Of a stretch of 20,143 nucleotides of DNA, positions 769-18,190 are shown piece by piece; the stretch's first letter is position 1; every line of letters begins with the position of its first letter. The stretch is taken from the IMG/VR virus record IMGVR_UViG_3300045411_000075, positions 1-20,143 of that record. One strand, written 5' to 3'. This DNA comes from a virus. The translations under genes were made by a program, and so were the position numbers. The notes beneath the pieces were generated by a model. That model was not told the origin of the DNA, did not search any database, and worked only from the letters and a program-made list of their open reading frames with translations.

Positions 769-1107
769 ATGTCAGACTATATAGTAGCAGAAACAATCCT
801 CTCACAAATCAAAGCTCTCGACCCTAGAGCTACATTGGCATGGGGTGCTAAAGAATTCATTGGTTTCACAGAATCTTCAAAAAATTTAGGCTCTCTTAGA
901 TTCAAAGCAACAAACAATCCAAATTTCAAAAGCATCTTCATCACAATCTCACTTGAATTCAATGATACATATACAATTTCTGCGTGGAAGATTGTCAAAC
1001 ATGAAGTTGTAGTGAAGACTAAACATTCTGATGTCTACTGCGATATGCTTGTAGATGTCATTGATTCAATTTTAGGATATACACGCTTGAAGAGTATAAA
1101 GCTATGA
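769..1107 (+). CDS. Conserved small phage protein (TILxQ...GAK family)
   Basis: A 112-residue soluble protein. The N-terminal pattern Glu-Thr-Ile-Leu-Ser-Gln (8-13), a Gly-Ala-Lys at about 26-28, a central Leu-Arg-Phe, and the Asp-Thr-Tyr (about 66-68) and Asp-Val-Tyr motifs match a widespread small protein of phages and prophages whose members usually read TILxQLGG then GAKxF. That family has no established function as far as I know. AGGAG at 757-761 supports this ATG. The stop overlaps the next ATG (ATGA), so it is translationally coupled to the HAD phosphatase gene. It is probably an early or middle gene, given the promoter upstream. Confidence 0.75.
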   Translation: MSDYIVAETILSQIKALDPRATLAWGAKEFIGFTESSKNLGSLRFKATNNPNFKSIFITISLEFNDTYTISAWKIVKHEVVVKTKHSDVYCDMLVDVIDSILGYTRLKSIKL

Positions 1108-1643
1108 AAAAACAATTGTTAGCAGTAGACGTTGACTTAACTGTCGTTGATCCAGTCACCCATCCAACACATGGATGGGTAAAATGGTATCATGATCAAA
1201 CTGGACATGATATCTATGAAGACGTAATCGGGAAGGAATTTCACTTGGACGACTTGATGCACAATCATCATGATCCAATGATTTTTTGGAAGAATCCTCA
1301 TATGTACGATAAGCTTGAACCAATGCCAGATTCGGTTCGTGTTTTGAAAGCGTTGTCAGAAAAATATGCAATTGCTTTTGTCAGTCATTGTTATCCCGAA
1401 CATCATCATTCGAAACATTATTTCCTAAAAAGACATTTTCCTTTCATGAGTGGATTTATCGACACGGGTGACAAACACTTGGTGCGTCCAGATGTGTTCA
1501 TCGATGACTATGCAAAATATCTTCGTCAGGTGAAAGATTTCAATCCCGCTTGCAGATGTATCAAAATCAAATCATCGATCAACAAAGAATCGGATGATTT
1601 CGAATTCCTTGACTGGAACGAAATTTGGCTAGCTTTAAAATAA
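1104..1643 (+). CDS. HAD-superfamily 5'(3')-deoxyribonucleotidase-like phosphatase
   Basis: A 179-residue HAD-fold protein. Motif I is the Asp-Val-Asp-Leu-Thr-Val-Val-Asp run at residues 9-16, with Asp9 as likely nucleophile and Asp11 as acid/base. Motif II Ser is in Val-Ser-His (about 93-95). The late segment Asp-Lys-His-Leu-Val-Arg-Pro-Asp-Val-Phe-Ile-Asp-Asp supplies the Lys of motif III and the acidic pair of motif IV. This resembles small 5'(3')-deoxyribonucleotidases, which dephosphorylate dNMPs. It is rich in His (for example 51-53 and 99-101). It overlaps the preceding gene by four bases and sits just before the modification cluster. A role in lowering dTMP in favour of a modified pyrimidine is an inference; another small-molecule phosphatase is possible. 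Confidence 0.7.
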   Translation: MKKQLLAVDVDLTVVDPVTHPTHGWVKWYHDQTGHDIYEDVIGKEFHLDDLMHNHHDPMIFWKNPHMYDKLEPMPDSVRVLKALSEKYAIAFVSHCYPEHHHSKHYFLKRHFPFMSGFIDTGDKHLVRPDVFIDDYAKYLRQVKDFNPACRCIKIKSSINKESDDFEFLDWNEIWLALK

Positions 1644-1703: not shown

Positions 1704-2573
1704 ATGAAGAAAAGAGACAGCGTAATTGCCGATTTAAAACAAAATGGATATGTAATCTTCCGCCATGCGATAGATGAACATGAAGCACAGAAAATCAAAA
1801 AAGATGCAATTGAGCTTCGAAATTTCTACAGCGAAGAGCTTGTTCAGGAACGTATGTTCTATCGCAGAGAGGGATCTCGCAATCGTCAAGGTGATGCAAT
1901 CATGGTTACGGACAGTACTGGGGCGTCCCTTCCAAATCTGAATATCAATATCTATCCTGAAATCAGTAAATGGTTAGCAGTGTATAATGATATCATCGAA
2001 GCAGCAATCGGTCGTGAAGCTATGAAGCCAGCATACCGTCGTTCAATGATGAATATTCAACAATATTTTGAAAATAGTTTCGAGGTTGTTGATCATTATG
2101 ATGGCGAATTCATTTCATATCACCATGAAAAGGATTCAATAACTGATGAAAATGTGTTGATGGTAGATAAGGCGTTGCTTCCACAATATGTAATGGTTCT
2201 CATTCTTGAAAATGAGAATGCAAACGGTAAGGGTACATACGTAAGAAAACATGATTCGGATGAACGTATCGATGTTGAACTGTTTGCAGGAGACGTTCTC
2301 ATTTTCGACAATATCAATATGCGTCATGGCGTTCCAGCACTCGACAAGCCTCGTATGATGATCGGCTTTAGAAACTTCGATTTCTATCCCATGTATTTCG
2401 AAGCTCACCCAGAAGGTGGACACAATTGGATTGAACTTCCTGATAACAAAAATGCGGGATGGATTCAAGATTGTATACCAGAAGATTCAGTGATGTTACA
2501 ACAAAATTTTATAACAGAATGGAAAGAGAAGGGATATGAAGAAAATGTCAGGAATTCACAACCAGCATTCTAA
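1704..2573 (+). CDS. 2-oxoglutarate/Fe(II)-dependent dioxygenase, PhyH-like
   Basis: A 289-residue protein with the features of the 2OG-Fe(II) oxygenase double-stranded beta-helix. The N terminus has the phytanoyl-CoA-dioxygenase-like opening Asn-Gly-Tyr-Val-Ile-Phe-Arg (14-20). The metal triad is probably His131-Tyr-Asp133 plus His208, in Gly-Asp-Val-Leu-Ile-Phe-Asp followed by Arg-His-Gly-Val. Arg217, nine residues after His208, is placed to bind 2-oxoglutarate. Such enzymes hydroxylate their substrate with O2. The substrate is not shown: free nucleotide, modified base in DNA, or a small metabolite are all possible. Its place before the P-loop, TS-family and hypermodification genes makes a base-tailoring role attractive. 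AAAGGA at 1692-1697 supports the start, and the 3' end overlaps the next gene by about 29 bases. Confidence 0.8.
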   Translation: MKKRDSVIADLKQNGYVIFRHAIDEHEAQKIKKDAIELRNFYSEELVQERMFYRREGSRNRQGDAIMVTDSTGASLPNLNINIYPEISKWLAVYNDIIEAAIGREAMKPAYRRSMMNIQQYFENSFEVVDHYDGEFISYHHEKDSITDENVLMVDKALLPQYVMVLILENENANGKGTYVRKHDSDERIDVELFAGDVLIFDNINMRHGVPALDKPRMMIGFRNFDFYPMYFEAHPEGGHNWIELPDNKNAGWIQDCIPEDSVMLQQNFITEWKEKGYEENVRNSQPAF

Positions 2574-3114
2574 ATGCAAACACATCTGTTTGTATGGTGG
2601 TCCAGGAGTTGGAAAATCTGGTACGGCTTCAGGTCTGTTCTCGAAAATGAAACGCAATCATATGGTCTGTGAGTACGTGACAGAGTACGCAAAGGATAGA
2701 GTGTTCTCGAAAGATTTCTTTACACTCGGTGATCAGCTTATGATCCTTGCAAAACAACATCACTCTTGGTACAAACTCGAAACGCAAGTTGAGTATACAA
2801 TCAATGATGGACCATTTTTACTGTCACTGGCATATGTTCAGGAAGGTGAGCATCTCCCCATAGACACATTCACGAAACTTATCATTGAGATGTATAAATC
2901 TTATGATACTCTTAATGTGTTCTTGGAACGTGATGCAGTAAGAAATGGTTATCAACAGTACGGGCGGAATCAGACACTTGATGAAGCAATCGAACTAGAC
3001 AACAAAATCAAAAGAATATTAAATGACAATGATATACCGTACGTCACGGTAAAAGTTGGGAAGAAAACAATCAAAAACATTTTCAAAATCATCAAGGAAC
3101 TAGAAGATTCTTAA
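2545..3114 (+). CDS. P-loop ATPase/kinase, AAA_28 (NadR-like) type; candidate 5-hmdU kinase
   Basis: A 189-residue single-domain P-loop protein. Walker A is Gly-Gly-Pro-Gly-Val-Gly-Lys-Ser at 18-25. A Val-Thr-Glu-Tyr-Ala-Lys-Asp motif, an Asn-Asp-Gly-Pro in the Walker B region and a late Phe-Leu-Glu-Arg with Arg-Asn-Gln are typical of a common phage ATPase family related to NadR ribosylnicotinamide kinase. ATG 2545 is preferred to ATG 2536 because AGAAGGG (2527-2533) is 11 nt from the former and only 2 nt from the latter. The family's function in phages is not settled. Here it lies upstream of a TS-family enzyme and a protein of the 5-hmdU DNA kinase helical family that lacks its own P-loop, so it could be the separate kinase that activates 5-hydroxymethyl-dU. 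That role is inferred from context only. Confidence 0.75.
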   Translation: MSGIHNQHSKCKHICLYGGPGVGKSGTASGLFSKMKRNHMVCEYVTEYAKDRVFSKDFFTLGDQLMILAKQHHSWYKLETQVEYTINDGPFLLSLAYVQEGEHLPIDTFTKLIIEMYKSYDTLNVFLERDAVRNGYQQYGRNQTLDEAIELDNKIKRILNDNDIPYVTVKVGKKTIKNIFKIIKELEDS

Positions 3115-3129
3115 CGAATTTTAAACTAG

Positions 3130-3153
3130 TTTTAACAATTCTTGAGGTATACT
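3130..3153 (+). promoter_or_regulatory. Promoter with TTTTAA box and TATACT -10
   Basis: TTTTAACAATT starts at 3130, 18 nt before TATACT (3148-3153). A strong AAAGGAAAGG ribosome binding site follows at 3161-3170, and the TS-family gene starts at 3179. It lies in the 64-base gap that separates the first part of the cluster from the TS-family operon. Confidence 0.65.
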
Positions 3154-3178
3154 CATTAAGAAAGGAAAGGAAATTCGA

Positions 3179-4294
3179 ATGCATATAATCAACGGTAACA
3201 CAATTAATGAAATCGCTCTAAAATCATGGAATTTGATTTTCAACACTGGAAATACTTCAACAAATCGCAATGCAGCATCGCTTGGTGGAATCAACGTAGC
3301 ATATGACGTATCTATACTTATGGAAAATCCACGCTCACGTCACCTCTATTTGGAAGGTCGTAAGAACAACATCTTTGCTGTATTCGGTGAAATGTTTTGG
3401 GTAATGGCTGGTCGGGAAGACACTGAATATCTAATGAACTTTATTCCACGTGCAAACGACTTCTCAGATGATGGGAAAACATGGCGTGCAGCATACGGTT
3501 CTCGATGGTATGAATATGGTCAGCTTCAAAATCTTGTAGACAAGTTCGTTGATGACGGTCTTTATACACGTCAAGCAATGTTGACTCTTTGGCATCCTGA
3601 GAAAGACACTAAAGAAATGCTTCAAGAAAAATATGGTCTCGAAAAAACAAAAGACACACCATGTAATCAGTGGTTGCAATTTTGGGTTGAATCTAAAACA
3701 AACCAGTTGAATATGAAAGTCATCCAACGTTCTGGTGATGCAATCTGGGGTACATTGAATATAAATCTTCCTGAATTCTCATTTTTGCACGAATTCGTCT
3801 ATCAAATGGTAAAACAAACGTACCCAGAAGTAAAGCTCGGAGTGTATCATCACAGCGTAACAAACTTCCATATCTATGAAGCAACAGCTCAACAAGCAAA
3901 GGATGCAATCGCAATCAAATATGACGGCAATTTTACTGAAAATGTAAAAAGAGCAGTGTTTCCAACAACTGTAACAAAAATGAAGCAGTTCTTCAACAAC
4001 ATCTGTGAAATTGTAGTGGATGAAAATCCTAATGCATATGATCGTATTCGTAACATCTTCAACTTCTTCGAAGTTCCAATGGAAGACAATATTGTCTATG
4101 ATTACGTAATCTTCACAAGAGTTTGGATGGCTTCTAAACGTGCTGGATACAAAAATGCAACGAAAGAAGAAAATGAAATCAGTGTTCCAGCTTTCTGTAA
4201 AACATCAAAGGATTTGATGGTTGCTATCGAAAATAGTCAGTTCAGAAACTTTGTTATTAGAGACAACGGGATGACAGTCAATACTATGTATTGA
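3179..4294 (+). CDS. Thymidylate-synthase-family enzyme, probable dUMP hydroxymethylase
   Basis: A 371-residue member of the thymidylate synthase/pyrimidine hydroxymethylase family. Visible family residues are Glu71 in Phe-Gly-Glu-Met-Phe-Trp, the Tyr-Gly-Ser-Arg-Trp segment at 106-110, Arg131, nucleophile Cys162 in Pro-Cys-Asn, the phosphate-binding Arg184-Ser-Gly-Asp187, Asn196 (at the dUMP-selecting Asn position on my alignment) and His231-Ile-Tyr233. The tryptophans of the usual Ile-Trp-Asp-Glu-Trp loop are replaced (Pro90, Asn93), and the usual Pro-Cys-His is Pro-Cys-Asn. Asn196, rather than the Asp of dCMP hydroxymethylase, argues for a dUMP substrate. The protein is about 100 residues longer than typical bacterial ThyA, with an extra C-terminal region after about residue 240. 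Given the downstream hypermodification genes, formation of 5-hydroxymethyl-dUMP is the better guess; plain dTMP synthesis remains possible. Confidence 0.8.
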   Translation: MHIINGNTINEIALKSWNLIFNTGNTSTNRNAASLGGINVAYDVSILMENPRSRHLYLEGRKNNIFAVFGEMFWVMAGREDTEYLMNFIPRANDFSDDGKTWRAAYGSRWYEYGQLQNLVDKFVDDGLYTRQAMLTLWHPEKDTKEMLQEKYGLEKTKDTPCNQWLQFWVESKTNQLNMKVIQRSGDAIWGTLNINLPEFSFLHEFVYQMVKQTYPEVKLGVYHHSVTNFHIYEATAQQAKDAIAIKYDGNFTENVKRAVFPTTVTKMKQFFNNICEIVVDENPNAYDRIRNIFNFFEVPMEDNIVYDYVIFTRVWMASKRAGYKNATKEENEISVPAFCKTSKDLMVAIENSQFRNFVIRDNGMTVNTMY

Positions 4295-4308
4295 AAGGAG
4301 AGAGAGAT

Positions 4309-4869
4309 ATGATAGCATTAACTGGTATCAGTGGTAGTGGAAAAGACTACCTTGTTTCATATTTGGTGAATGAACTCGGGTACACTCGAGTATCATTCTC
4401 AGACCAACTTAAAGAAATCTCCAATATGATATATCCATGGTTAGAAAAAGACTACCCACCAATTGTGAAAGAACAGCCTCTCGATGTGACAACTTCCATT
4501 GGTGAACACATTACGAAAACGCCACGCCAAATCTGGTTGAAACTCAATATGCTCAGAGATATTGAAGATGGCATTTTCATCCGAATGTTGGAAGAAAAAC
4601 TGGTAGCAATGGGGAGCCCCGACAAAATTGTAATTTCTGATATCAGACCTCAACTTGAATGGGACTGGTGCAAGAAAATGGGATTCACTACCATCTACAT
4701 TGATCCATTGAAATTGATCTATGAACCAAACGATTTCGACAAGCAAGTTCTCACATATAAAGACCAAGCTGATTATGTTTTCGAGAACGATTTTAAAGGA
4801 TTAAATAAATTTATACAATTTATGAAGGATGTGAATGAAAACAAAAAGGGAAGACATCCATTATTGTGA
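4309..4869 (+). CDS. Deoxynucleoside monophosphate kinase (T4 gp1-like)
   Basis: A 186-residue P-loop kinase. Walker A is Gly-Ile-Ser-Gly-Ser-Gly-Lys-Asp at 6-13, followed by a Ser-Phe-Ser-Asp-Gln-Leu-Lys segment typical of phage dNMP kinases. A later Ile-Ser-Asp-Ile-Arg-Pro motif includes the conserved Asp-x-Arg. T4 gp1 phosphorylates dTMP, dGMP and hydroxymethyl-dCMP to diphosphates; here the likely special substrate is 5-hydroxymethyl-dUMP from the preceding enzyme. The frame is open from a TTG at 4291 that overlaps the TS-family stop, but ATG 4309 has AAGGAG at 4295-4300 at good spacing and starts right before the first beta strand, so it is preferred. The 3' end overlaps the next gene by 35 bases. 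Confidence 0.85.
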   Translation: MIALTGISGSGKDYLVSYLVNELGYTRVSFSDQLKEISNMIYPWLEKDYPPIVKEQPLDVTTSIGEHITKTPRQIWLKLNMLRDIEDGIFIRMLEEKLVAMGSPDKIVISDIRPQLEWDWCKKMGFTTIYIDPLKLIYEPNDFDKQVLTYKDQADYVFENDFKGLNKFIQFMKDVNENKKGRHPLL

Positions 4870-5974
4870 TGTTGACATTTACAAAATCCGTATGGCTAAA
4901 CCAGAACTGAATGAGGATATCGTAAGGCTTCATCACTTGTACCTTACAGAACGTCACGAAATTTACAAGAAAAAAGAAATCGAAAAAGTGCCTGCTCCAT
5001 GGACAGAAGACGAAGTGTTCTTGAACTATCGTTTTACCAATATCCGTAGAGAACTTGACCGTGAATCGAAATGGCTGATCCAAAATGTTTGCGAGGTGGA
5101 CATTCCGTTGAAGGACAAAATCCTCAACTGTATTTTGTTTAGAACTTTCAATAAGAGCGAAACATCAAAACTGATTAACATGCCAATCATCGACATCGAG
5201 AACATAGATCTTGAATACTACAAACAGATTTTTATCGCTAAAGCGAAAGCTGACCCAGCTTATGTTTTCTTTACACCAGCTTTCATGACTGGTGGTCTTA
5301 AGAAAGGAAATGCATTTAAGAATGCTCCATACGTTAGAAGGACGGCAACAATTATCGACGCCATAGGCAACGTAGTCCGCACTGGTGAGTATATCGACTG
5401 TCGTGATTTCGTAAATGAAAACGATGGATATGATATCGTTGACTGGGAAAAGAATATTCCAACACGTATGTTACGTTTCGTACAGCGTGAAGCTAATGAT
5501 GGACTCGTTGACGACATTCTAAACGCAAAAGACCAAAAGACTGTATTTGACCGTTTGACTACAATCACTGGTCTTGGAGCTTTCTTGGCATATCAAATCT
5601 TCGTCGACTTCACATATATTCCTGAATTCAAATTCAGTGAGAATGAATTCGTTGTTTCTGGTCCTGGATGTTCACGTGGTCTTGACATGTACTTTAAGAA
5701 TAGAGATGGAATGAACTACGAGGAAGCATTATTCTGGTTACGTGACAATCTTGAAGGGGTGTGGAAGCAATATGGATTGCAATACTATCCAGAAGAGCTG
5801 TTTGATCACCTTGAAGAATTTGACAGAAACTACAATGTCATGATGCTAGAAAATAGTTTTTGCGAGCTACAAAAACTAGTCAAAGCAAAAACTGAAACTG
5901 GTCGTCCTCGTAACCGTTATACACCAACGCCGACTAAACAAGTTAACAAAACTACATTAGAAAATTTCTTCTAA
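4835..5974 (+). CDS. 5-hmdU DNA kinase helical-domain / aGPT-pyrophosphorylase family protein
   Basis: A 379-residue all-helical protein related to the DNA-glycosylase fold. It carries the family hallmarks: Pro-Trp-Thr-Glu-Asp (55-59), then Tyr-Arg-Phe-Thr-Asn-Ile-Arg-Arg-Glu-Leu-Asp-Arg (65-76), a helix-hairpin-helix-like Thr-Gly-Leu-Gly-Ala-Phe-Leu-Ala-Tyr-Gln (245-254) and Gly-Pro-Gly-Cys-Ser-Arg-Gly-Leu (276-283). Relatives occur in phages with thymidine hypermodification, as the helical part of 5-hydroxymethyl-dU DNA kinases and as alpha-glutamyl/putrescinyl-thymine pyrophosphorylases. They act on 5-hydroxymethyl-dU already in DNA. No P-loop is present here, so activation would need a separate kinase such as the one at 2545. 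The C terminus (from about 355) is Thr/Lys/Pro-rich and probably disordered. AAGGAT at 4825-4830 supports the start. Confidence 0.85.
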   Translation: MKTKREDIHYCDVDIYKIRMAKPELNEDIVRLHHLYLTERHEIYKKKEIEKVPAPWTEDEVFLNYRFTNIRRELDRESKWLIQNVCEVDIPLKDKILNCILFRTFNKSETSKLINMPIIDIENIDLEYYKQIFIAKAKADPAYVFFTPAFMTGGLKKGNAFKNAPYVRRTATIIDAIGNVVRTGEYIDCRDFVNENDGYDIVDWEKNIPTRMLRFVQREANDGLVDDILNAKDQKTVFDRLTTITGLGAFLAYQIFVDFTYIPEFKFSENEFVVSGPGCSRGLDMYFKNRDGMNYEEALFWLRDNLEGVWKQYGLQYYPEELFDHLEEFDRNYNVMMLENSFCELQKLVKAKTETGRPRNRYTPTPTKQVNKTTLENFF

Positions 5975-5993
5975 TCTAAGGGTCGTAAATATC

Positions 5994-6203
5994 ATGGATA
6001 TTCATAAACTGAGAATAACTCCAGAAAAATTGGATAGATTGTCTCAAGCTGAACTTGAGTATGTCATCCAATTGATAGACGAACACACTACAAATTACTC
6101 TTACGCTGCAAGAAATTACCCTCCTGAACGTCATGAAAAATACTCTGTACCATACTTGAAATTGTGGTCAGCTTTTAAATTGAAAGTGCTAGCTAAAGTT
6201 TAG
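5994..6203 (+). CDS. Small unknown protein in the modification cluster
   Basis: A 69-residue protein that I do not recognise. It is predicted mostly helical and is charged, with an aromatic-rich middle (Tyr-Ser-Tyr, Tyr-Pro-Pro-Glu-Arg) and a basic C-terminal helix. No signal peptide, no cysteine. An AAGG (5978-5981) precedes the ATG by 12 bases, a weak ribosome binding site. It lies 19 bases after the helical-family gene and before a promoter, so it ends that transcript segment. A small DNA-binding or partner protein is possible but unsupported. Confidence 0.6.
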   Translation: MDIHKLRITPEKLDRLSQAELEYVIQLIDEHTTNYSYAARNYPPERHEKYSVPYLKLWSAFKLKVLAKV

Positions 6204-6207
6204 CTGT

Positions 6208-6231
6208 AATTAATGTTAATTAGAGTATAAT
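6208..6231 (+). promoter_or_regulatory. Promoter with TTAA box and TATAAT -10
   Basis: TATAAT at 6226-6231 has TTAA at 6210-6213 and again at 6216-6219, placing the first at the same offset as in the promoters at 3130 and 11608. It lies in the 54-base gap before the amidotransferase gene, which has AAAAGGAAAG just ahead of its ATG. Confidence 0.5.
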
Positions 6232-6257
6232 AAAAATATTAAAAAAAGGAAAGAAGT

Positions 6258-6941
6258 ATGTGTGGAGTAGTAGGTGTAACCCTAACCAACCCAACTGCCG
6301 ATGATTTGCAGTTAATTAGAAACGTATTCATGGAAACTCAGATTCGTGGAAAACATGCTTCTGGCATCGCTTGGTATAATGGTGTCTCTCTTGAGATGAT
6401 CAAGGATGGAGTACCAATTTCAGTTCTATTGAAAAGCATCGATTTCGGTAACATGATGTACGTTTCTCAGGATGACCGAACATTAAAAATTTCTTGCATT
6501 GGTCACATTCGCTATAGCACTTCCGATATTCACTATCATCAACCACTCGGTCATTCAGACTTTGGATATATCGTCCACAATGGGGTCATTACACAAGAAG
6601 ACCCCTCCTCATGGAACGAAACGTACGGATATGAATGTGAAACAAAGAATGACTCGGAATTGATCTATCATACAATCAAAAGTGGAAAACATCCTCTTGA
6701 AGAATTCCCAACAGCAAGTATCAGTGCACTTAGCATCGACACTTATGGAAATATTGTTTCGTATCGGAATTCCCTTAGACCTCAGTGGAAATACGAAAAA
6801 GAAAATGGCATAATTTACGCAAGTACTAAAAATATCCTTCTTAGAGCAGGAGCTGAGCTAGCCAAAATTTCGATGGTTCAATCACCGTTCGAAGAAAAAC
6901 AAATTCGACATATGGAGTTAGATTATGCAGAAACGCATTGA
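6258..6941 (+). CDS. Stand-alone class II glutamine amidotransferase domain
   Basis: A 227-residue Ntn-hydrolase glutaminase. Met1 is followed by Cys2 in Cys-Gly-Val-Val-Gly-Val, the nucleophile exposed after Met removal. Gly-His-Ile-Arg-Tyr-Ser-Thr (82-88), His-Asn-Gly (107-109) and Asn-Asp-Ser-Glu (131-134) are the glutamine-binding motifs seen in GlmS, PurF and AsnB. Those enzymes carry a second synthetase domain; this protein stops after the glutaminase, so the ammonia acceptor must be another protein. It lies between the 5-hmdU helical-family gene and the amino acid:DNA transferase-like gene, overlapping the latter by 17 bases. That suggests an amide or amine step in base modification. 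A fused amidotransferase-QueC occurs in some Campylobacter phages for 7-deazaguanine synthesis, but no QueC-like sequence is present here. Confidence 0.85.
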   Translation: MCGVVGVTLTNPTADDLQLIRNVFMETQIRGKHASGIAWYNGVSLEMIKDGVPISVLLKSIDFGNMMYVSQDDRTLKISCIGHIRYSTSDIHYHQPLGHSDFGYIVHNGVITQEDPSSWNETYGYECETKNDSELIYHTIKSGKHPLEEFPTASISALSIDTYGNIVSYRNSLRPQWKYEKENGIIYASTKNILLRAGAELAKISMVQSPFEEKQIRHMELDYAETH

Positions 6942-7932
6942 TGATTTCAAGACATATTATACTCTGTCACAATCGGTAAGGGACGTTGATCCTAGTATCT
7001 GGATGTCGAATTATATCGTTGATCGGATGGAATTGAATCAAGAACAGATTCTTTGGTTTTGCTTTCTTTCTTCTATTACGTATCAGCTCCCAACAGCGTA
7101 TATGATTATCAACGAGTATCCTGACCTCGAAAATGTAGGTGAAGACCGTTTACGTCACTGGTGGAATGAAGTTCAAGGATCTTGTCCATTTCAGAATGAC
7201 AAATTGAAGCAACGTAAATATCTTCCAGCAAGCGTCATCTCATACAAGCACCTTGTGAACGGTTCACAAGTCGAATATTTCAAGAGTGTTCTAACAGATA
7301 ATCCAAATGAGAATTTCAATATCCTTCTTAAGATTGGATATGATAGTATAGAACATTTCGGTCGGTTCAGTATCTGGAACTGGGCTCAGATGTTGAAGCA
7401 AGTTGCTCATCTACCCATTGAACCAGACACATTATTGCTCGGTGATAGCAACTCAGAATCTCATACTCATGGAATTTGTTATGCTCTTGGGAAAGACGAT
7501 TGGGCTAAGAAAATTCGTTATACGGATGAAGCGACGGGAAAGCGTAAAAAAGAGGTTCATAAATTCACAACTGAAGATTGTAAGTATCTTGAAGATGAAT
7601 GTAAGGAACTGATATTATCGTTGAAGGCTCAGGGGGATGTACCTGTAGACAATTTTTATATTGAGACCATTGCGTGTGCATATAAGAAATTGTTCAGGGA
7701 AAACGATAGTCGTTACATCGGATACTATCTTGACCGCCAGGCAGAAGACATTATAAAAACTTCTGCTAACTGGCAGGGAGTTGATTGGGACTTGCTGTGG
7801 CAGGCACGTAAAGAAATGATTAGACAGGATTTGCTGAACACTGCTGTTGACACTTCTAAATATAAATGGACTTATGAGAAAAAGTTCAGTGAAGTTGGTT
7901 CTAGCAAGAGTTTAAGCGATTTCATGTATTAA
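6925..7932 (+). CDS. Amino acid:DNA transferase-like protein (thymine hypermodification)
   Basis: A 335-residue helical protein. Hallmarks are Arg-Met-Glu-Leu-Asn-Gln-Glu-Gln near 34-41, Gln-Leu-Pro-Thr-Ala-Tyr (54-59), Leu-Pro-Ala-Ser near 100, His-Phe-Gly-Arg-Phe-Ser (144-149) and Gly-Asp-Ser-Asn-Ser-Glu-Ser-His-Thr-His-Gly (173-183). These match the phage family named amino acid:DNA transferase, related to aGPT-pyrophosphorylases. In studied thymidine hypermodification systems, such an enzyme displaces pyrophosphate from 5-(pyrophosphoryloxymethyl)-dU in DNA and joins an amino acid (glycine in Pseudomonas phage M6 and Salmonella phage ViI pathways). The acceptor amino acid here is unknown. 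GGAG at 6914-6917 supports the start, within the end of the amidotransferase gene. The GNAT-like gene follows closely. Confidence 0.8.
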   Translation: MQKRIDDFKTYYTLSQSVRDVDPSIWMSNYIVDRMELNQEQILWFCFLSSITYQLPTAYMIINEYPDLENVGEDRLRHWWNEVQGSCPFQNDKLKQRKYLPASVISYKHLVNGSQVEYFKSVLTDNPNENFNILLKIGYDSIEHFGRFSIWNWAQMLKQVAHLPIEPDTLLLGDSNSESHTHGICYALGKDDWAKKIRYTDEATGKRKKEVHKFTTEDCKYLEDECKELILSLKAQGDVPVDNFYIETIACAYKKLFRENDSRYIGYYLDRQAEDIIKTSANWQGVDWDLLWQARKEMIRQDLLNTAVDTSKYKWTYEKKFSEVGSSKSLSDFMY

Positions 7933-7956
7933 AAAAATATGCGGAGTATTCAGAAT

Positions 7957-8565
7957 ATGACAAACTTATTTGACAACATCTATCTTCTCACTCGAGAAGA
8001 TGTAGAAAGAACAATCCCATACTCTTCTCACAGAAAGGCTATGGTAAATGCAATGAACAGTCTCTGGGTTCGGTTCCAAAATTATGAGAAATTCCCCCCA
8101 ATTGCAGTCGTTGACGAAAATGGTCAAGTTATGGCGATTGCCATGATTACACACCTCAAAAATAATGACATCAACTTGTATGATATCGTATCATTCAAAC
8201 CAGGAGCTGGGACAACTCTTTGGAAAGCTATTCTAAAGATTTACTCGGAGAAAGGTGCTAAGAATATCAAGTTCAGAGCATTGAAGAGTGCATTGCGTTT
8301 CTACAGCAATAAGGGTATCTATTACTGGGGATTCGATGGAAAATCGTATACAGTATTTCAACCGTTGTTTGGGACAATCGAAGAAATGAAAAATTGGCAG
8401 AATGACTTCTTGAAGAATCCTATCGTGCTGAACAGAACGTCTCTCGAATTCAAAGCACCACCAAAGAAATATACAAGAGAGATTATCGACCAAATGGAAA
8501 GTTTAGGTGAAAATTTCTACATGCGGTACAAAATCAAAACGCTCAAGGAACACTCATATGAGTAA
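7957..8565 (+). CDS. GNAT-like N-acyltransferase
   Basis: A 202-residue protein with a likely GNAT core: a beta strand pair around Val-Met-Ala-Ile-Ala-Met-Ile, an Asp-Ile-Val-Ser strand, then Lys-Pro-Gly-Ala-Gly-Thr-Thr-Leu-Trp (about 86-94) in the place of the acetyl-CoA pyrophosphate loop Q/RxxGxG/A. Phe-Tyr-Ser-Asn-Lys-Gly-Ile-Tyr-Tyr-Trp-Gly resembles the terminal GNAT FYxKxGF motif. ATG 7957 is chosen over ATG 7939 because GCGGAG (7941-7946) is a good ribosome binding site only for the former. It follows the amino acid:DNA transferase-like gene by 24 bases. Acylation of an amino group on the hypermodified thymine is an inference. Free small molecules or proteins are alternative substrates. 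Confidence 0.65.
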   Translation: MTNLFDNIYLLTREDVERTIPYSSHRKAMVNAMNSLWVRFQNYEKFPPIAVVDENGQVMAIAMITHLKNNDINLYDIVSFKPGAGTTLWKAILKIYSEKGAKNIKFRALKSALRFYSNKGIYYWGFDGKSYTVFQPLFGTIEEMKNWQNDFLKNPIVLNRTSLEFKAPPKKYTREIIDQMESLGENFYMRYKIKTLKEHSYE

Positions 8566-9316
8566 ATTTATCTTTCTAGATACCGAGACTGCTCGGCTCC
8601 TGAATGAAATCAAACTAGAAGACGACATTATCATCCAGCTGTCTTACATTGTTATCGATGAAGATGCAGGTGGGTTTAAAAATCCAGCATTCATCGCTGA
8701 CGTTAAAACAGACCCCTCCTGTAATATTTCATTCACAACCATGACTGTCCACCACACTACACAAGAAATGTTGGAAGGACGTCCGAATGTAAAGAAAACA
8801 CCTGAATACAAGTATCTGAAAGAACTTGTTGAATCTGGAGAATATGTATTCGTTGCTCATAATGCTAGCTTCGATATTCAGGTTCTTAAAATGGTTGGGA
8901 TTGATATAACGAAATATTGTGATGTAATCGATACACTCAGAATTTCTGAAATTATCAATGACCAAACTGGATTGCAACTAGAAATGAACAAATTGCGATA
9001 TCTTATCTACTATTATGGTCTATATAAGAAAAAACAAAAATTGTGTGATCTTTACGGATTGTCTGACAAGAACACTTATCACGAAGCAATCAGTGATATC
9101 TTGGACTTGATCCTCGTATACTTGCATTTCAAGAACGAATTTAAGGCTACAAATGAACACATGTTGTATCTTAGTAACAATGCCGTGAAACTTAAATACG
9201 TTCCATTCGGAATCAACAGGGGTAAACTGTTCGAAGATTTGAGTTACAACTCATTGAAATGGTATTCAGAAACTGACAATCCAAACGTAGCATATACTGC
9301 TAGCCTTTACATTTAA
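8558..9316 (+). CDS. DEDDh 3'-5' exonuclease, exodeoxyribonuclease X-like
   Basis: A 252-residue RNase T/DnaQ-fold exonuclease. Catalytic residues are visible as Asp8 and Glu10 (Phe-Leu-Asp-Thr-Glu-Thr), Asp106 (His-Asn-Ala-Ser-Phe-Asp), and His175 with Asp180 (His-Glu-Ala-Ile-Ser-Asp), the DEDDh type. The C-terminal segment Val-Pro-Phe-Gly-Ile-Asn-Arg-Gly-Lys with a later Leu-Lys-Trp-Tyr is like the small C-terminal module of exodeoxyribonuclease X. The frame is open further upstream (8507), but ATG 8558 starts just before the first catalytic strand and has AAGGAA at 8545-8550. It overlaps the GNAT-like gene by eight bases. Proofreading, repair or host DNA turnover are possible roles. Confidence 0.85.
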   Translation: MSKFIFLDTETARLLNEIKLEDDIIIQLSYIVIDEDAGGFKNPAFIADVKTDPSCNISFTTMTVHHTTQEMLEGRPNVKKTPEYKYLKELVESGEYVFVAHNASFDIQVLKMVGIDITKYCDVIDTLRISEIINDQTGLQLEMNKLRYLIYYYGLYKKKQKLCDLYGLSDKNTYHEAISDILDLILVYLHFKNEFKATNEHMLYLSNNAVKLKYVPFGINRGKLFEDLSYNSLKWYSETDNPNVAYTASLYI

Positions 9317-9327
9317 TAGGAGAAATT

Positions 9328-9933
9328 ATGTTTAAAGATTTTAGAACAATGTTAGATGCTCAAGAGGCTCTAAATAGCAAATATAATCCAACGTGGAGGG
9401 AAAGTGTTGTTATCGAACAACAATTGAGTGCAGCATTCACTGAATTGGCAGAGTGGTTCGAAAGTGCTCCTAGAAGCGGAGGTGTAACAACTAATGGTAT
9501 TCGTGGATGGAAATTTTGGAAGAGAAATCTTGAAGATGATCACCAAAACAAACGTATCGAAGTAATCGATGTATGGCACTTTATGATGAGTGTATGGTTG
9601 TATCTCGGTACAAAAGATGATGTAGAACATTTTGTCAGTAAATATAATTACTGTGCAAACAATGAAATGTCACCATTGAAGAAAATTCATCTTTATCAAG
9701 CGAAGTTCACAATGCACAGCATGGAAGAAAATCTTGAGAAAAGTGTCTTCGCTGGGATGACATTGTTGAAATATTTGATGGATGAAACTGACATGACTTG
9801 GAGTGCTCTCGAGAACGGGTACTTCGTAAAAAATCAATTGAACCATGCTCGTGTTGATGGTGGGTACCAAGATGGACACTACACTAAACACGACGAAAAT
9901 GGAAATGAAGATAACGCTTCCCTAAATGTATGA
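9328..9933 (+). CDS. Dimeric all-alpha dUTPase
   Basis: A 201-residue member of the all-alpha NTP pyrophosphatase group (dimeric dUTPase, related to MazG). Metal ligands are Glu39-x-x-Glu42 and Glu78-x-x-Asp81. The C-terminal half carries the dUTPase signature Lys168-Asn, Asn172, Arg175, Gly-Gly-Tyr (178-180), Gly183, Tyr185 and Glu-Asp-Asn (194-196). It hydrolyses dUTP to dUMP and pyrophosphate, limiting uracil in DNA and feeding the TS-family enzyme. In a phage that makes 5-hydroxymethyl-dU, control of the dU pool is especially useful. Dimeric dUTPases occur in Campylobacter and many phages. TAGGAG upstream supports the start. Confidence 0.85.
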   Translation: MFKDFRTMLDAQEALNSKYNPTWRESVVIEQQLSAAFTELAEWFESAPRSGGVTTNGIRGWKFWKRNLEDDHQNKRIEVIDVWHFMMSVWLYLGTKDDVEHFVSKYNYCANNEMSPLKKIHLYQAKFTMHSMEENLEKSVFAGMTLLKYLMDETDMTWSALENGYFVKNQLNHARVDGGYQDGHYTKHDENGNEDNASLNV

Positions 9934-12022: not shown

Positions 12023-13276
12023 ATGAATATCGATACTGAACACTACGCCCTAACATGGGTTGGAAAAACCGAAGCCAAAAAGATAGCCCAAACGCCATCT
12101 GCGGGAACCCTTCAACCTTGTAAAGATGAGTCAAAAGATTGGGATACGACCAAAAACCTTTATATCGAGGGGGATAACTTAGAGGTGTTAAAACTTCTTC
12201 AAAAGTCGTATCATAAAAAAATAAAGACGATATACATTGACCCACCATATAACAAGGGAAAAAAATTCGTATACAACGACAATTTCCGCAATCATTCTAA
12301 TTGGCTCAACATGATGTATCCACGCCTCAAGCTTGCTCGTAATCTTCTTAAAGATGATGGTGTGATTTTTATCAGTATCGATGATAATGAAGTGGCGAAT
12401 TTGCGGTTATTGTGTGATGAGATATTCGGAGAAAAGAATTTTATTAGGAATGTTATTTGGGAGAAAAAATATTCACCTGCAAATGATTCAAAAGTTATAA
12501 GTGATACACACGACCATATTTTAGTATATGCTAAAAATATATCCGAATGGACAATGAAACTCTTACCAAGAACAGAAGAGATGAATAAAAGATATTCTAA
12601 TCCTGATAATGATTCAAGGGGGGCATGGAAGCCTGGATGTTTATCAGCAAAAACTTATAGTTCTAAATATGATTATCCTGTAGTTACTCCATCTGGAAAA
12701 ACAGTTTATCCTCCAACTGGTAGTTGTTGGCAAGTTTCGCAAGAAAAACTTGAAATGTTAATAAGCGATAATAAAATATATTTTGGAAAGAAAGGCGATG
12801 CTAAACCTCAAATAAAACAGTTTTTAACTGATGTTCAGGATGGAGTAGTTTCTAAAAGTATATGGAAATATGATGAAGTTGGACATAATCAAACATCCAG
12901 AAAAGAGTTGACAGACTTATTTGATGGAGAGTTTTTATTTGACAATCCTAAACCTACGACATTGATAGAAAGAATATTTGATATTACAACATTTGCTGAA
13001 AATGATATTGTTTTAGATTTTTTTTCAGGCTCAGGTTCAACAGCCCATGCGGTATTAAAATATAATTTAAAGCACAATTTAAATCTGCATTTTATTCTTA
13101 TTCAGATTCCTGATAGAGTAACTGTAAATAGTGTTGCAGAGCAAAAAGGATATAAAAACATATGCGAAATAGGAAAAGAGCGCATCCGACGGGCAGGGGA
13201 TAAAATTATCGCCGATAGCCCTAATAAAGATTTATCGGGACTCGATACTGGGTTTAAAGTCTTCAAAATATCATAA
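12023..13276 (+). CDS. Orphan type III Mod-like N6-adenine/N4-cytosine DNA methyltransferase
   Basis: A 417-residue beta-group amino-methyltransferase. Motif IV is Asp-Pro-Pro-Tyr at 73-76, and the SAM-binding motif I, Asp-Phe-Phe-Ser-Gly-Ser-Gly-Ser-Thr, comes later at about 332-340, the order of type III Mod proteins. Ile-Glu-Gly-Asp-Asn-Leu-Glu-Val-Leu and His-Ser-Asn-Trp-Leu-Asn-Met-Met-Tyr-Pro-Arg are also Mod-like. The central region would hold target recognition. Typical Mod proteins have roughly 50 more N-terminal residues; here the Leu-Thr-Trp-Val-Gly-Lys segment begins at residue 10, so the gene seems trimmed. No restriction gene is nearby. Base use is unlike the neighbours, with more GGGG/CCC and T runs. 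It lies between 17-bp direct repeats, which suggests recent gain. It may protect phage DNA from host restriction. Confidence 0.9.
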   Translation: MNIDTEHYALTWVGKTEAKKIAQTPSAGTLQPCKDESKDWDTTKNLYIEGDNLEVLKLLQKSYHKKIKTIYIDPPYNKGKKFVYNDNFRNHSNWLNMMYPRLKLARNLLKDDGVIFISIDDNEVANLRLLCDEIFGEKNFIRNVIWEKKYSPANDSKVISDTHDHILVYAKNISEWTMKLLPRTEEMNKRYSNPDNDSRGAWKPGCLSAKTYSSKYDYPVVTPSGKTVYPPTGSCWQVSQEKLEMLISDNKIYFGKKGDAKPQIKQFLTDVQDGVVSKSIWKYDEVGHNQTSRKELTDLFDGEFLFDNPKPTTLIERIFDITTFAENDIVLDFFSGSGSTAHAVLKYNLKHNLNLHFILIQIPDRVTVNSVAEQKGYKNICEIGKERIRRAGDKIIADSPNKDLSGLDTGFKVFKIS

Positions 13277-14609: not shown

Positions 14610-14649
14610 TCCTTAAAAACTAACGAAACGAAAGGATCTTAAAAAATGG
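14610..14649 (+). repeat. Leader repeat before methyltransferase 2
   Basis: TCCTTAAAAACTAAC (14610-14624) recurs exactly at 15886-15900, and ACGAAAGG followed by ATCTTAAAAAATGG (14628-14649) recurs at 15909-15930 with one mismatch. Both copies end in a ribosome binding site and an ATG-G, so the methyltransferase and AAA+ genes share a duplicated translation start region. Confidence 0.8.
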
Positions 14650-15899
14650 ATTTAAAAGGGAAAAAGAAGGTTCTATCGCTTTTTTCTGGCTGTGGTGGTA
14701 TGGATTTAGGATTAGAAGGCAATTTTCAAGTCCATAAAGCTTCAATCAATGAATATTTACACCCTAATTGGATTCAAAAACAAATTAACGAGCACTTCGT
14801 TCAGTTAAGCCCTACCCCCTTTGAAACAGTTTTTGCGAATGATATTTTATCTTCCGCAAAAATGGCGTGGGTTCCATTTTTTCAAAAGAGGGGCAGGAAT
14901 CCCGAAGTTTTTCATAGTGAAAGCATAGTTGATATGGTCAAAAAAGCAAAAGAGGGGGCATTTGCCTTCCCTCCCGACATAGATATTGTAACTGGTGGAT
15001 TTCCTTGTCAAGATTTTAGTATCGCAGGAAAACGTTTGGGGTTTCAATCTCACAAAAGCCATAACGGGTGTGATATTTCTGACCCTACAACCGAAAATCG
15101 TGGAATGTTATATATGTGGATGAAAGAAGTTATCGAACTTACCAAACCTAAAATTTTTATAGCCGAAAATGTTAAGGGGTTAGCTTCTCTTGGAGAAGTT
15201 AGGAAAATTATTGAAAACGATTTTCGCTCCATCGATGAAAATGGATATTATGTATTACCTTCAAGAGTATTGAATGCGGCGGATTATGGAGTTCCCCAAG
15301 GAAGAGAGCGTATTATTTTTATTGGTTTGAATAAAAAATATTTACGACCAGCTATACTCGCTATGATTGAAAATGGTACTCTTGATGAGAGTGTGAACCC
15401 TTATCCGTCGCCAACACACGCTTGCACACCTTTAAATAAAAGCAATCTGTTAAAGCCATATATGACGGTTTCGCAAGCATTCGAAAATTTACAAGAGCCT
15501 GCGCAATCAAGCGACCCATCTCAACAAGTGTATTCAAAGGCTAAATTTTTTCCAAAAACACAGGGTAATACTGAAGTGAATTTACAAGGTATTAGCCCAA
15601 CAATTCGAGCAGAGCACCACGGAAACATTGAATTTCGTAGATTATCAGAAGAAAATGGTGGTAAAAATTTCGATGAATTGAAAAAAGGCTTACAAGAAAG
15701 ACGCTTAACCGTTAGAGAATGCGCAAGACTTCAAACATTCCCCGATAATTACGAATTTGTTAAAAATAAAAAGGAAGCATATCCATTGTCGGCTTCCAGT
15801 GCCTATAAAGTTATTGGTAATGCCGTTCCACCTCTTTTGGCGTATAATTTGGCAAAGCGTATTGAAAAAGTATGGGATGACCTATTCCTTAAAAACTAA
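14646..15899 (+). CDS. Orphan DNA (cytosine-5)-methyltransferase
   Basis: A 417-residue m5C methyltransferase with all main motifs in order: motif I Phe-Ser-Gly-Cys-Gly-Gly (13-18), motif IV Pro-Cys-Gln with catalytic Cys121, motif VI Glu-Asn-Val, motif VIII with Gln-Gly-Arg-Glu-Arg, a target-recognition stretch, motif IX [10 protein letters not shown], and motif X Gly-Asn-Ala-Val-Pro-Pro. It therefore looks complete and active. The segment between motifs I and IV is long (about 100 residues). No restriction enzyme gene is adjacent. Composition differs from the surrounding phage genes, with GGGG and CCCC runs. It is flanked by a 25-bp direct repeat and an inner leader repeat. Protection of phage DNA from host restriction is the likely role. 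Confidence 0.93.
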
Positions 15900-15930: not shown

Positions 15931-17195
15931 GAAAAGCTCTCACAAATATTGTAAAATGTAAGGATTTGAATGTGGAAAAATTAAATGATGTAAAAATCGT
16001 TGTATCTCAGGACAGTTATCAAGATCCATCTAATTGTATGGTCAATAACTGGATGTTGCAACGGTTCTCATTTTCAGTTGTTCAGGTACAATGTACAAAA
16101 GACAACTTCTGGAAATATATTGAAGAGCTAACTGGTAAGTTCGGAGAAGAAAATATCAGCTCCAACAAATTCGAAATATCACCAACAAATCGCCTTTACT
16201 ATGTACATGAAATGAACGACAAATTCATGATCGTCGGTGATGTTGGGTTCGGTGAATTATTTACTGTGAACATTTACGGTAATACAATTGAAATGACTGC
16301 CCACCTTTATGAAGTTTTCAAAGAATATGAACACGAAAACGATGATGTAGATATTCAATTGGTGCATGTTGGCATTCAAGGTGGGAAGCTAGTCGAAAAC
16401 ACTACTCGCTTAAAACCAAAAAATTTCGAAGATGATATTGCTGATTTCTATCCATATATTGATACAGATGCAATGTTCGAACAATTTGTTAGAAGCAACG
16501 AAAACATTCTTGTTCTGATTGGTCCTCCAGGAGTCGGTAAAAGCCGTCTTGCAAATATGTTTATGCGTTGGATGCTTGATCATGCTGATATTTGCACTGA
16601 ATTGAAAATGCAAGACAAACAATTCGAAGATTATGATGACGATGAAAAGAACATTTCGTTCAGCGTTTCATACGTTAAAAACGAAGAAATTCTTGCTATG
16701 GATGAGTACTGGGCAAGGCTTACAAAAACTACACATGCTCTTGTTTTCTTGGATGATACTGACTATTCAATTACGTCTCGTCAAAAACAAATCAACGGTG
16801 TAGAGGATTTGACAAAGAACAAATTCCTTTCCCAACTCTTGAGCTTTACCGATGGTATTACTAAAAACAATACCAAATTCATTATAACCACCAATATCGA
16901 GGTTGATGATATCGATACAGCAGTATTGCGTAAAGGTCGTACATTCGACATCTTGCGCCTCAGATATCTCAACGAAGAAGAAGCAAGAACAATTTGGAAG
17001 AAACAAGGATTCGAACTTGAGCACTATTTTGACAATATTGTAGAAGGCGATGTACCAGCGTGTGATCTTGGGTCGGCTATAAATAAAGAAAAGATTCGCT
17101 TACAAAATGGTTCAAGTAAACAACAATCTTATCTGAAAGAAGATGGTATCAGTATCTTGAACTGTAACGGTACTACTTCTGTCGGATTTCTTTAA
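15927..17195 (+). CDS. AAA+ ATPase, phage replication/assembly type
   Basis: A 422-residue protein. The first 180 residues are a phage-specific N-terminal region. A single AAA+ module follows: Walker A Gly-Pro-Pro-Gly-Val-Gly-Lys-Ser (199-206), Walker B Val-Phe-Leu-Asp-Asp-Thr-Asp (273-279), sensor 1 Asn323 in Ile-Thr-Thr-Asn, and Arg335/Arg338 in the sensor region Leu-Arg-Lys-Gly-Arg. It resembles classical AAA remodelling ATPases more than a clamp loader. The target is unknown. The start codon and codons 3-10 lie in sequence duplicated around the methyltransferase gene, so the native start may have been replaced. AAAGG at 15912-15916 supports the present ATG. Confidence 0.8.
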   Translation: MGKALTNIVKCKDLNVEKLNDVKIVVSQDSYQDPSNCMVNNWMLQRFSFSVVQVQCTKDNFWKYIEELTGKFGEENISSNKFEISPTNRLYYVHEMNDKFMIVGDVGFGELFTVNIYGNTIEMTAHLYEVFKEYEHENDDVDIQLVHVGIQGGKLVENTTRLKPKNFEDDIADFYPYIDTDAMFEQFVRSNENILVLIGPPGVGKSRLANMFMRWMLDHADICTELKMQDKQFEDYDDDEKNISFSVSYVKNEEILAMDEYWARLTKTTHALVFLDDTDYSITSRQKQINGVEDLTKNKFLSQLLSFTDGITKNNTKFIITTNIEVDDIDTAVLRKGRTFDILRLRYLNEEEARTIWKKQGFELEHYFDNIVEGDVPACDLGSAINKEKIRLQNGSSKQQSYLKEDGISILNCNGTTSVGFL

Positions 17196-17209
17196 AAAAG
17201 GAGAAAGAA

Positions 17210-17437
17210 ATGATTTCAAGAAAAAAATTTGATCCAAAAAATATTTCAGTAACAGAGATAGATAACGGATTTAATATCAATTATAAAGATGGATTCAACT
17301 TATTCTTTGGGGAAGCAAATCTTTATGACTTAACTTGGTACAATCCCCAATTTAAAATTGAGCTAGTAGAAAGATTAATCCAACGCACTCTTGAATATAT
17401 TCAAGAGAACCCAAATCCAAATAAGGAAAAGTTATAA
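17210..17437 (+). CDS. Small unknown protein
   Basis: A 75-residue protein that I do not recognise. It has a basic N terminus, a beta-like middle with Asn, Gly and Phe (Gly-Phe-Asn-Ile-Asn, Gly-Phe-Asn-Leu-Phe-Phe-Gly) and a C-terminal amphipathic helix. A strong AAAAAGGAG ribosome binding site precedes it. It follows the AAA+ gene by 14 bases and overlaps the next gene by one base (TAATG). Confidence 0.65.
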   Translation: MISRKKFDPKNISVTEIDNGFNINYKDGFNLFFGEANLYDLTWYNPQFKIELVERLIQRTLEYIQENPNPNKEKL

Positions 17438-17673
17438 TGATTGATGTAAAAATCGATAACGTCTTAAAAGACGACAAATTTGTTGTGGCTATCTGCAATG
17501 ATGGTGAAGTTGAAATGTATATCCCATTCAGAGGAAACTCTTTGGATATCATCCGTTCAAAATTTAAAATCAATGTAGCAAAGAAATATACAACTACAGA
17601 CATCCATGTAATCCAAAATGCTGTTTTTGCGCATCTTGGAATCACTGCGTCAGCAACTGAGATTGAGGTGTAA
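17437..17673 (+). CDS. Small unknown protein
   Basis: A 78-residue soluble protein of unknown family, with alternating beta-like segments (Phe-Val-Val-Ala-Ile, Glu-Met-Tyr-Ile-Pro-Phe) and a C-terminal helix. It is coupled to the preceding gene by a one-base overlap and preceded by AAGGAAAAG. Its last four codons and the stop lie inside a perfect 28-bp palindrome that probably ends the transcript, making it the last gene of the replication block. Confidence 0.65.
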   Translation: MIDVKIDNVLKDDKFVVAICNDGEVEMYIPFRGNSLDIIRSKFKINVAKKYTTTDIHVIQNAVFAHLGITASATEIEV

Positions 17674-17687
17674 TTACACCTCAATCT
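17660..17687. terminator. Perfect 28-bp palindrome, likely terminator
   Basis: A perfect palindrome with half-site AGATTGAGGTGTAA; as RNA it gives a 12-bp stem with an AAUU loop. It contains the stop codon of the gene at 17437. It is followed by a pyrimidine-rich stretch (CTCCTCTTT) rather than a long T run, so termination would be partial or aided. It separates replication genes from late genes. Protein binding is an alternative. Confidence 0.6.
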
Positions 17688-17692
17688 ACTCC

Positions 17693-17703
17693 TCTTTAAA
17701 TAA
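17693..17703 (+). promoter_or_regulatory. Candidate late promoter before gp4
   Basis: TCTTTAAATAA; its TTTAAATA matches the T4 late -10 element TATAAATA in seven of eight positions. It begins just after the palindrome and ends 31 nt before the gp4 start. A near copy precedes the portal gene at the same distance. Confidence 0.45.
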
Positions 17704-17734
17704 CCTTATATACAATTGTAAGGTTGAAACTTCA

Positions 17735-18187
17735 TTGGCAAAATTCAAACAAGGTATCTTTACACCAACATATCCAGATAAATGGTATGGTAAAAAACAG
17801 ATTGTATATAGAAGTTCATGGGAAAAGATATTTATGATATACTGCGATAAAAACAGTGCAGTAACTAAAGTTGCATCAGAAGAAGTTGTGATATCATATT
17901 ATTTTGAATTAGATCAAAAAGTCCACAGATATTTTCCAGATTTCTTAATGGAATATACTGACAAACATGGAAATATAAGAACAATCATGATCGAAATTAA
18001 ACCACACATAGAAACAATTATGCCTGTCAAGAGACGTGGGCAATCTGAAAAATCATTCGTTGATAGAATGGTAACATATCAGAAAAATCAAGCAAAATGG
18101 GAAGCTGCAAAGAAATGGTGTGATGAAAAAAATATAACATTCAGTGTCATGACAGAATATGATCTTGGAATCAAGAAAAGGACATAA
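17735..18187 (+). CDS. Head completion nuclease, T4 gp4-like
   Basis: A 150-residue protein, the same length as T4 gp4, if it starts at TTG 17735. Family features are Gly-x-Phe-Thr-Pro near the N terminus, Tyr-Arg-Ser-Ser-Trp-Glu-Lys with Met-x-Tyr-Cys-Asp, Ser-Glu-Glu-Val-Val-Ile, His-Arg-Tyr-Phe-Pro-Asp-Phe and Ile-Glu-Ile-Lys-Pro-His. The Glu, Asp and Glu-x-Lys of these motifs form a restriction-endonuclease-like (TnsA-like) active site. gp4 completes the filled head and is thought to trim DNA ends. There is no suitable ATG; the frame runs open from 17618 but that would cross the palindrome and the upstream stop. TAAGG at 17719-17723 fits the TTG. Coupled to the next gene by close spacing. 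Confidence 0.85.
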   Translation: MAKFKQGIFTPTYPDKWYGKKQIVYRSSWEKIFMIYCDKNSAVTKVASEEVVISYYFELDQKVHRYFPDFLMEYTDKHGNIRTIMIEIKPHIETIMPVKRRGQSEKSFVDRMVTYQKNQAKWEAAKKWCDEKNITFSVMTEYDLGIKKRT

Positions 18188-18190
18188 AGG

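Follow-up and report, generated by a model that had tools for sequence, protein, structure and literature searches.

A putative glutamine amidotransferase and ADDT-II pair in a predicted 5-hydroxymethyl-deoxyuridine hypermodification cassette of a T4-like phage

The described systems closest to the locus reported here are the 5-(2-aminoethoxy)methyl-deoxyuridine (dU) pathway of the Ackermannviridae (ViI, Vibrio phage K469 and VPALA) and the pathways of the Pseudomonas phages M6 and PaMx11, associated with 5-NedU, N-alpha-glycyl-T and 5-aminomethyl-dU (5-NmdU). The route to the modified base uses serine in ViI and glycine in PaMx11, and 5-aminomethyl-dU is reportedly already established as a phage DNA base. 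Here we analyzed a stretch of 20,143 nt (the window), which is the complete IMG/VR record IMGVR_UViG_3300045411_000075. The record is a fragment of the phage genome, so the absence of a gene from the window says nothing about the phage. The window carries a run of consecutive genes in one direction (Table 1), including a standalone class-II glutamine amidotransferase (GATase) and a predicted transferase of the ADDT family, subtype II. A pathway based on 5-hydroxymethyl-dU (5-hmdU) is well supported by the predicted proteins; that the window encodes most of such a pathway together with a glutamine-driven amination step we regard as an even call.

A preliminary description, made from the sequence, had proposed thymidine hypermodification in a T4-like phage and listed a P-loop kinase-like protein, a thymidylate synthase (TS)-family enzyme, a deoxynucleoside monophosphate (dNMP) kinase, an HMUDK_hel-type protein, a class-II amidotransferase, an ADDT-like protein and a GNAT-like protein, with a dUTPase shortly after. 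All of these genes were recovered in that orientation, and profile matches, the TS signature, the PUGT-like fold of ADDT and T4-type genes bear out a 5-hmdU-based pathway. The two proteins singled out for profile searches fell into the HMUDK_hel and ADDT families rather than into unrelated ones. The HMUDK_hel protein is ~38–40% identical to Ackermannviridae (ViI-like) proteins; the HMUDK_hel and ADDT profiles found nothing useful among PDB sequences.

The TS-family protein matched the CMP hydroxymethylase MilA best in the PDB (3e-12), with thymidylate synthase trailing at 6e-3. In an alignment numbered by E. coli ThyA and including phage relatives, Trp80 is replaced by Ala and Leu143 by Asp, with Cys146 and Asn177 retained. 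An Asp three residues ahead of the catalytic Cys is reported as the hydroxymethylase signature (PMC6400193). ViI-type relatives match the window's changes, apart from an Ala at 143 in VPALA; the M6 enzyme has Met at position 80 but otherwise the same hydroxymethylase changes. Asn177 marks a uracil rather than a cytosine substrate, and MilA has Asp at this position; a dCMP hydroxymethylase was ruled out because Asn177 is kept. Given the match to CMP-hydroxymethylase structures, the Asp at −3 of the Cys and the retained Asn177, the protein is most likely a dUMP hydroxymethylase. In the closest long relative, L055 (L-numbers denote the related contigs or loci used for comparison), an intein that contains an HNH endonuclease domain splits the TS-family gene (L055:13825–15897; PF14890, PF13392).

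The feature that sets this cassette apart is the pairing of GATase with ADDT-II, the window type, as opposed to ADDT-I, the ViI type. An ADDT profile scan yielded 80 contigs, in the majority of which a same-strand GATase was present. By family hidden Markov models, GATase was present in all 60 ADDT-II loci whose upstream sequence extended for 3.7 kb or more and in none of 16 ADDT-I loci; the set includes near-duplicates and comes from best-80 lists, so the loci lack independence and such counts are not probabilities. In the reverse scan from GATase, all 45 loci whose downstream sequence reached 5 kb or more had ADDT; the 12 GATase loci without ADDT all lie on contigs that end short. The pairing holds across the gene orders TET-GATase-amidoligase-GNAT-ADDT, GATase-GNAT-ADDT-TET and GATase-ADDT directly. 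The two open reading frames (ORFs) overlap by 17 nt in the window and also overlap or touch in L055, L147, L100 and L182. In one syntenic lineage, HMUDK_hel-dUTPase-NT5C-X-kinase-TS, X is either GATase plus ADDT-II (L055, L147) or ADDT-I alone (L097, L098, L099). An amidoligase profile was empty in nine long GATase+ADDT contigs (up to 146.6 kb; at least eight with GNAT), with three positive controls detected, and no amidoligase was detectable in the window. The constant partner of GATase is thus ADDT, and amidoligase was rejected as an obligate partner.

The GATase catalytic Cys2, Arg85, Asn108-Gly109 and Asp132 are invariant in 10 sequences. A single-sequence scan found no relatives of the GATase and a profile scan did. 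The scans reported only three weak matches in cellular genomes; only six phage records matched the window GATase, the annotated ones being LUZ24-type operons, and no GATase match was found in known ADDT phages. The window ADDT has matches of 24–30% identity in Ackermannviridae and some mycobacteriophages. Its AlphaFold2 model (pLDDT 94) gave three significant PDB matches, all to PUGT of PaMx11 (8z2n/8z2m), a 5-phosphomethyl-dU glycinyltransferase (E 2e-4 to 6e-4, probability 1.00). At positions 90 and 155, ADDT-I has an invariant Asp and Glu where ADDT-II has Gln, which hints that the substrate may have changed. Putative GIY-YIG-type homing endonuclease ORFs, named from sequence, recur directly upstream of ADDT (L016:8716–10011; protein clusters 16 and 27).

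The protein following ADDT has no Pfam match itself, its relatives score as Acetyltransf_1, and its AlphaFold2 model gave Foldseek probabilities of 1.00 to many GNATs (best E 2.4e-6). By homology and modeled fold it is a GNAT, in line with the GNAT-like protein of the preliminary description. GNAT and/or amidoligase occur in 121 of 123 GATase+ADDT-II loci. In L147, a single ORF (16313–18415) joins GNAT, amidoligase and 5-hmdU DNA kinase 2 (HMUD2) domains, and L100 has an amidoligase-HMUD2 kinase fusion (6680–8299) with a separate GNAT; these fusions tie GNAT and amidoligase to DNA base chemistry.

The closest relatives, L055, L100, L147, L180 and L182, have a 5-hmdU DNA kinase beside ADDT, and both kinase families, PF18747 and PF18748, were found in K469. 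The phage's own enzyme is predicted to lie outside the window, elsewhere in the genome. The P-loop kinase-like protein at the start of the cassette is indeed a P-loop kinase (AAA_28), but not a 5-hmdU DNA kinase by profile: it had no Pfam match to PF18747 or PF18748 and scored at noise level against the HMUD1 and HMUD2 profiles, reaching 5e-4 against a Ploopntkinase3-type profile with filters off. That role was also rejected because the protein occurs together with HMUD-type kinases in L055 and L097–L098; it is likely a dNMP/hmdUMP kinase. Its relatives, often named thymidylate kinase, are found in jumbo phages of Prevotella, Caulobacter and Erwinia.

In the mechanism we propose, the dUTPase would supply dUMP, NT5C would remove competing dNMPs, and the TS-family enzyme would convert dUMP to 5-hmdUMP. 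The dNMP kinases would raise 5-hmdUMP to the triphosphate, from which the polymerase would place 5-hmdU into DNA. The 5-hmdU DNA kinase, aided by HMUDK_hel, would then phosphorylate the 5-hydroxymethyl group. GATase would hydrolyze glutamine and pass ammonia to ADDT-II, which would displace the phosphate of 5-phosphomethyl-dU to give 5-aminomethyl-dU. GNAT would acylate the new amine, joined or replaced by amidoligase in many relatives. The sequences show who the genes are, that catalytic residues are conserved, that GATase and ADDT-II are an obligate pair and that GNAT, amidoligase and kinase can be fused; we infer every chemical step, ammonia as the nucleophile above all. We put at somewhat under an even chance a reading in which GATase and ADDT-II together act as a glutamine-dependent amidotransferase that aminates 5-phosphomethyl-dU directly within DNA, the amine then being capped by GNAT and/or amidoligase; in this reading the back end is shared by convergent TS and TET/JBP front ends and is common in environmental T4-like phages.

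Glutamine as the nitrogen donor bears on the earlier proposal that some or all thymidine is replaced by an amino-acid-derived form: the modified-thymidine pathway is supported, and the amino-acid origin is doubtful. No pyridoxal phosphate (PLP) decarboxylase was found in five relatives tested, a TrpB-like PLP enzyme in none of eight, and radical S-adenosylmethionine (radical-SAM) enzymes are absent from the closest relatives L055, L180 and L147. Because the GATase partner is obligate and these enzymes are lacking there, the predicted genes point to glutamine-derived ammonia as a candidate nitrogen source at least equal to an amino acid. Ammonia as the nucleophile would explain why the pair is obligate, why the acidic residues have changed, why the amidoligase is dispensable while an acylating enzyme is nearly constant, and why PLP enzymes are lacking in the relatives tested and radical SAM in L055, L180 and L147.

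Several observations weigh against this mechanism. The ADDT model and PUGT share 13–14% identity with TM-scores of 0.52–0.60, and the ADDT fold and profile would fit ammonia or a small amino acid alike. The ammonia step is drawn from gene linkage, counted over the non-independent loci described above. Profiles for 5-hmdU DNA kinases (PF18747/PF18748) found none in the 20-kb window, some related contigs have a radical-SAM match away from the cassette, and amidoligase occurs in 78 of 123 GATase loci, where a GATase-amidoligase partnership is possible. The chief rival, which we judge unlikely but the strongest of the alternatives, is the known amino-acid route: ADDT-II would attach a free amino acid, and GATase, as an amidohydrolase resembling EgtC, would come in afterwards, for instance to trim a gamma-glutamyl or glutaminyl adduct. 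In its favor, amino acid:DNA transferases are the family to which ADDT belongs, and the one fold match of ADDT is to a glycinyltransferase. EgtC is one of the standalone class-II GATase folds that work as amidohydrolases, and this route would equally lead one to expect an obligate GATase-ADDT pairing. This route fits less well with the Gln residues that replace the ADDT-I acidic pair, with the invariance in GATase of Arg85 and Asp132, the usual contacts of free glutamine, and with the PLP and radical-SAM absences.

A partnership with amidoligase, in which ADDT adds an amino acid and GATase and amidoligase amidate its carboxylate, is distinctly improbable. Amidoligase often sits right next to GATase, and in L147 and L100 it forms one protein with the HMUD2 kinase domain, but the nine long contigs, one of 146.6 kb, and the window do without it and ADDT is the constant partner. 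We give very little weight to GATase being a cell-wall or host-takeover gene that neighbors DNA-modification genes by chance. This is the published reading of phage GATase and amidoligase, taken as peptidoglycan or host-takeover genes, in phiEco32/LUZ24-type and OM43 phages (PMC10580990, PMC5498523). It was judged unlikely here on the reciprocal ADDT linkage over several gene orders, the swap together with ADDT subtype in one lineage and the ORF that joins GNAT and amidoligase with a 5-hmdU kinase domain; LUZ24-type GATases are also longer and sit in different operons. Equally slight is the chance that the DNA contains 5-hmdU only, or that the cassette is decaying, so that no hypermodification takes place. 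The missing DNA kinase would fit, but the cassette ORFs are all intact with conserved active sites, the closest relatives have the kinase next to ADDT, and the window is a genome fragment.

The glutamine-dependent amination proposed above would extend to a larger set of phages. Among 123 GATase+ADDT-II loci, the front end was a TET/JBP oxygenase in 111, a TS-family enzyme in 6 and both in none. L016, L072, L210 and ~100 more environmental T4-like contigs carry TET/JBP, GATase, GNAT, ADDT and a P-loop kinase, and neither TS nor HMUDK_hel was found in nine longer TET/JBP-group contigs searched. No C5-cytosine methyltransferase was found in L016, L072 or L210 (147–162 kb). Its absence from these long contigs suggests that TET/JBP may act on thymine; a thymine-oxidizing (JBP-like) role fits, with host 5-methylcytosine a possible substrate as well. 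In 37 loci the TET-type cassette is followed by a protein of ~284 aa with a faint match to Anp1 glycosyltransferase (cluster 6; L016:12125–12991). L176 (8000–9019 and 16336–18539) is a further permutation, in which M6-type PLP and radical-SAM enzymes stand together with amidoligase, HMUD1 kinase, HMUDK_hel and TS, and L182 (26–4564) has a compact cassette of GATase, ADDT, HMUD1 kinase, a possible glycosyltransferase, P-loop kinase and TS.

Table 1. Predicted features of the cassette and its flanks, in window coordinates
Feature	Position	Strand	Support
NT5C-type 5'-deoxynucleotidase	1104..1643	+	PF06941 6.9e-15
2-oxoglutarate (2OG)-Fe(II)-dependent oxygenase, PhyH-like	1704..2573	+	weak Pfam, PhyH 0.005
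P-loop nucleotide kinase, AAA_28	2536..3114	+	AAA_28 5.6e-12; PHROG 2107 thymidylate kinase 7.2e-16
TS-family dUMP 5-hydroxymethylase (predicted, 5-hmdUMP)	3179..4294	+	PF00303 Thymidylat_synt 5.2e-16
T4 gp1-type dNMP kinase	4291..4869	+	PHROG 139, 9.8e-28; start TTG 4291 or ATG 4309
HMUDK_hel protein (5-hmdU DNA kinase helical-domain family)	4835..5974	+	PF18723 2.0e-63, over cut-off
Standalone class-II (Ntn) GATase	6258..6941	+	GATase_6 PF13522 1.4e-5; purF 2.6e-9
ADDT subtype II, 5-phosphomethyl-dU aminating/amino acid transferase (predicted)	6925..7932	+	PF18724 2.1e-12, over cut-off; PHROG 3271 2e-40
GNAT-fold acyltransferase (predicted)	7939..8565	+	homologs in 27 loci (phmmer), beside GATase/ADDT
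DEDDh 3'-5' exonuclease	8558..9316	+	RNase_T 2.7e-11; PHROG 192 6e-24
dUTPase_2-type dUTPase	9328..9933	+	dUTPase_2 1.4e-19

Two genes that the preliminary description left unmentioned, the 2OG-Fe(II) oxygenase and the NT5C nucleotidase, share this neighborhood in relatives. Members of the NT5C family also occur in the vicinity of ADDT in ViI-type phages, L055 and L097–L100. In the oxygenase, the HxD...H...R motif (H131, D133, H208, R217) is invariant in the window and three relatives; its gene adjoins the TS/AAA_28 genes in L055, L097 and L098 and lies within the cassette of L180. A part for the oxygenase in the GATase step is not supported, because L097 and L098 have the oxygenase and no GATase. 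The dNMP kinase directly follows TS in K469, VPALA, L100 and the window, and the dUTPase gene recurs in the cassettes of L055, L097–L100 and L147.

No close DNA relative of the window was found among 50,697 phage records. Its predicted T4-type head-closure protein (phrog_218, 2e-46), DNA end protector (phrog_429, 2e-28), RNase H and primase speak for T4-like ancestry. The window also encodes two predicted DNA methyltransferases, of N6/N4 type and C5-cytosine type (12023–13276 and 14646–15899), the C5-cytosine enzyme having no counterpart in ten related contigs. GATC is under-represented across positions 1–20143 (56 sites seen, 95 expected).

If true, the proposed mechanism would let phages make amine-bearing DNA bases with nitrogen drawn directly from glutamine, with no amino acid first installed and then carved down. 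It would assign a function in DNA modification to the phage GATase/amidoligase pair, which is mostly taken to act on the cell wall, and explain why GNAT or amidoligase is nearly constant alongside GATase and ADDT-II. The environmental phage set would be predictable carriers of acylated aminomethyl-thymine, and the enzymes would offer new means of DNA labeling or protection. We know of no other case of a class-II amidotransferase acting on a DNA pyrimidine base. The GATase-ADDT-II back end is not described in the literature compared, though the linkage may have been described earlier.

Compared with known systems, the window shares dUMP hydroxymethylase, dNMP kinase, HMUDK_hel, ADDT and NT5C with the ViI-type pathway, including the TS-dNMP kinase order. 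ViI-type phages have ADDT-I, 5-hmdU DNA kinases (PF18747/PF18748) and no GATase match; the window lacks a recognizable DNA kinase and carries GATase, GNAT and an ADDT of subtype II. With M6 and PaMx11 it shares a TS-type hydroxymethylase and HMUDK_hel, and PUGT of PaMx11 is the fold match of its ADDT model; M6 carries radical-SAM and TrpB-like PLP genes (named from sequence) and the window none. The LUZ24/tf-type operon has a class-II GATase domain, 26–30% identical to the window GATase, near an amidoligase, but in proteins of 500–590 residues with ATP-grasp and gamma-glutamyl cyclotransferase-like genes and no ADDT. The TET/JBP-type phages have GATase, GNAT and ADDT-II homologs as in the window, and differ in that their 5-hydroxymethyl group is predicted to come from an oxygenase acting in DNA, whereas the window encodes a predicted TS-type hydroxymethylase. 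Judged by its predicted genes, the pathway core is of the known ViI/M6 kind, and the gene set matches neither M6 nor ViI, in keeping with the earlier remark that it is unlike a known pathway.

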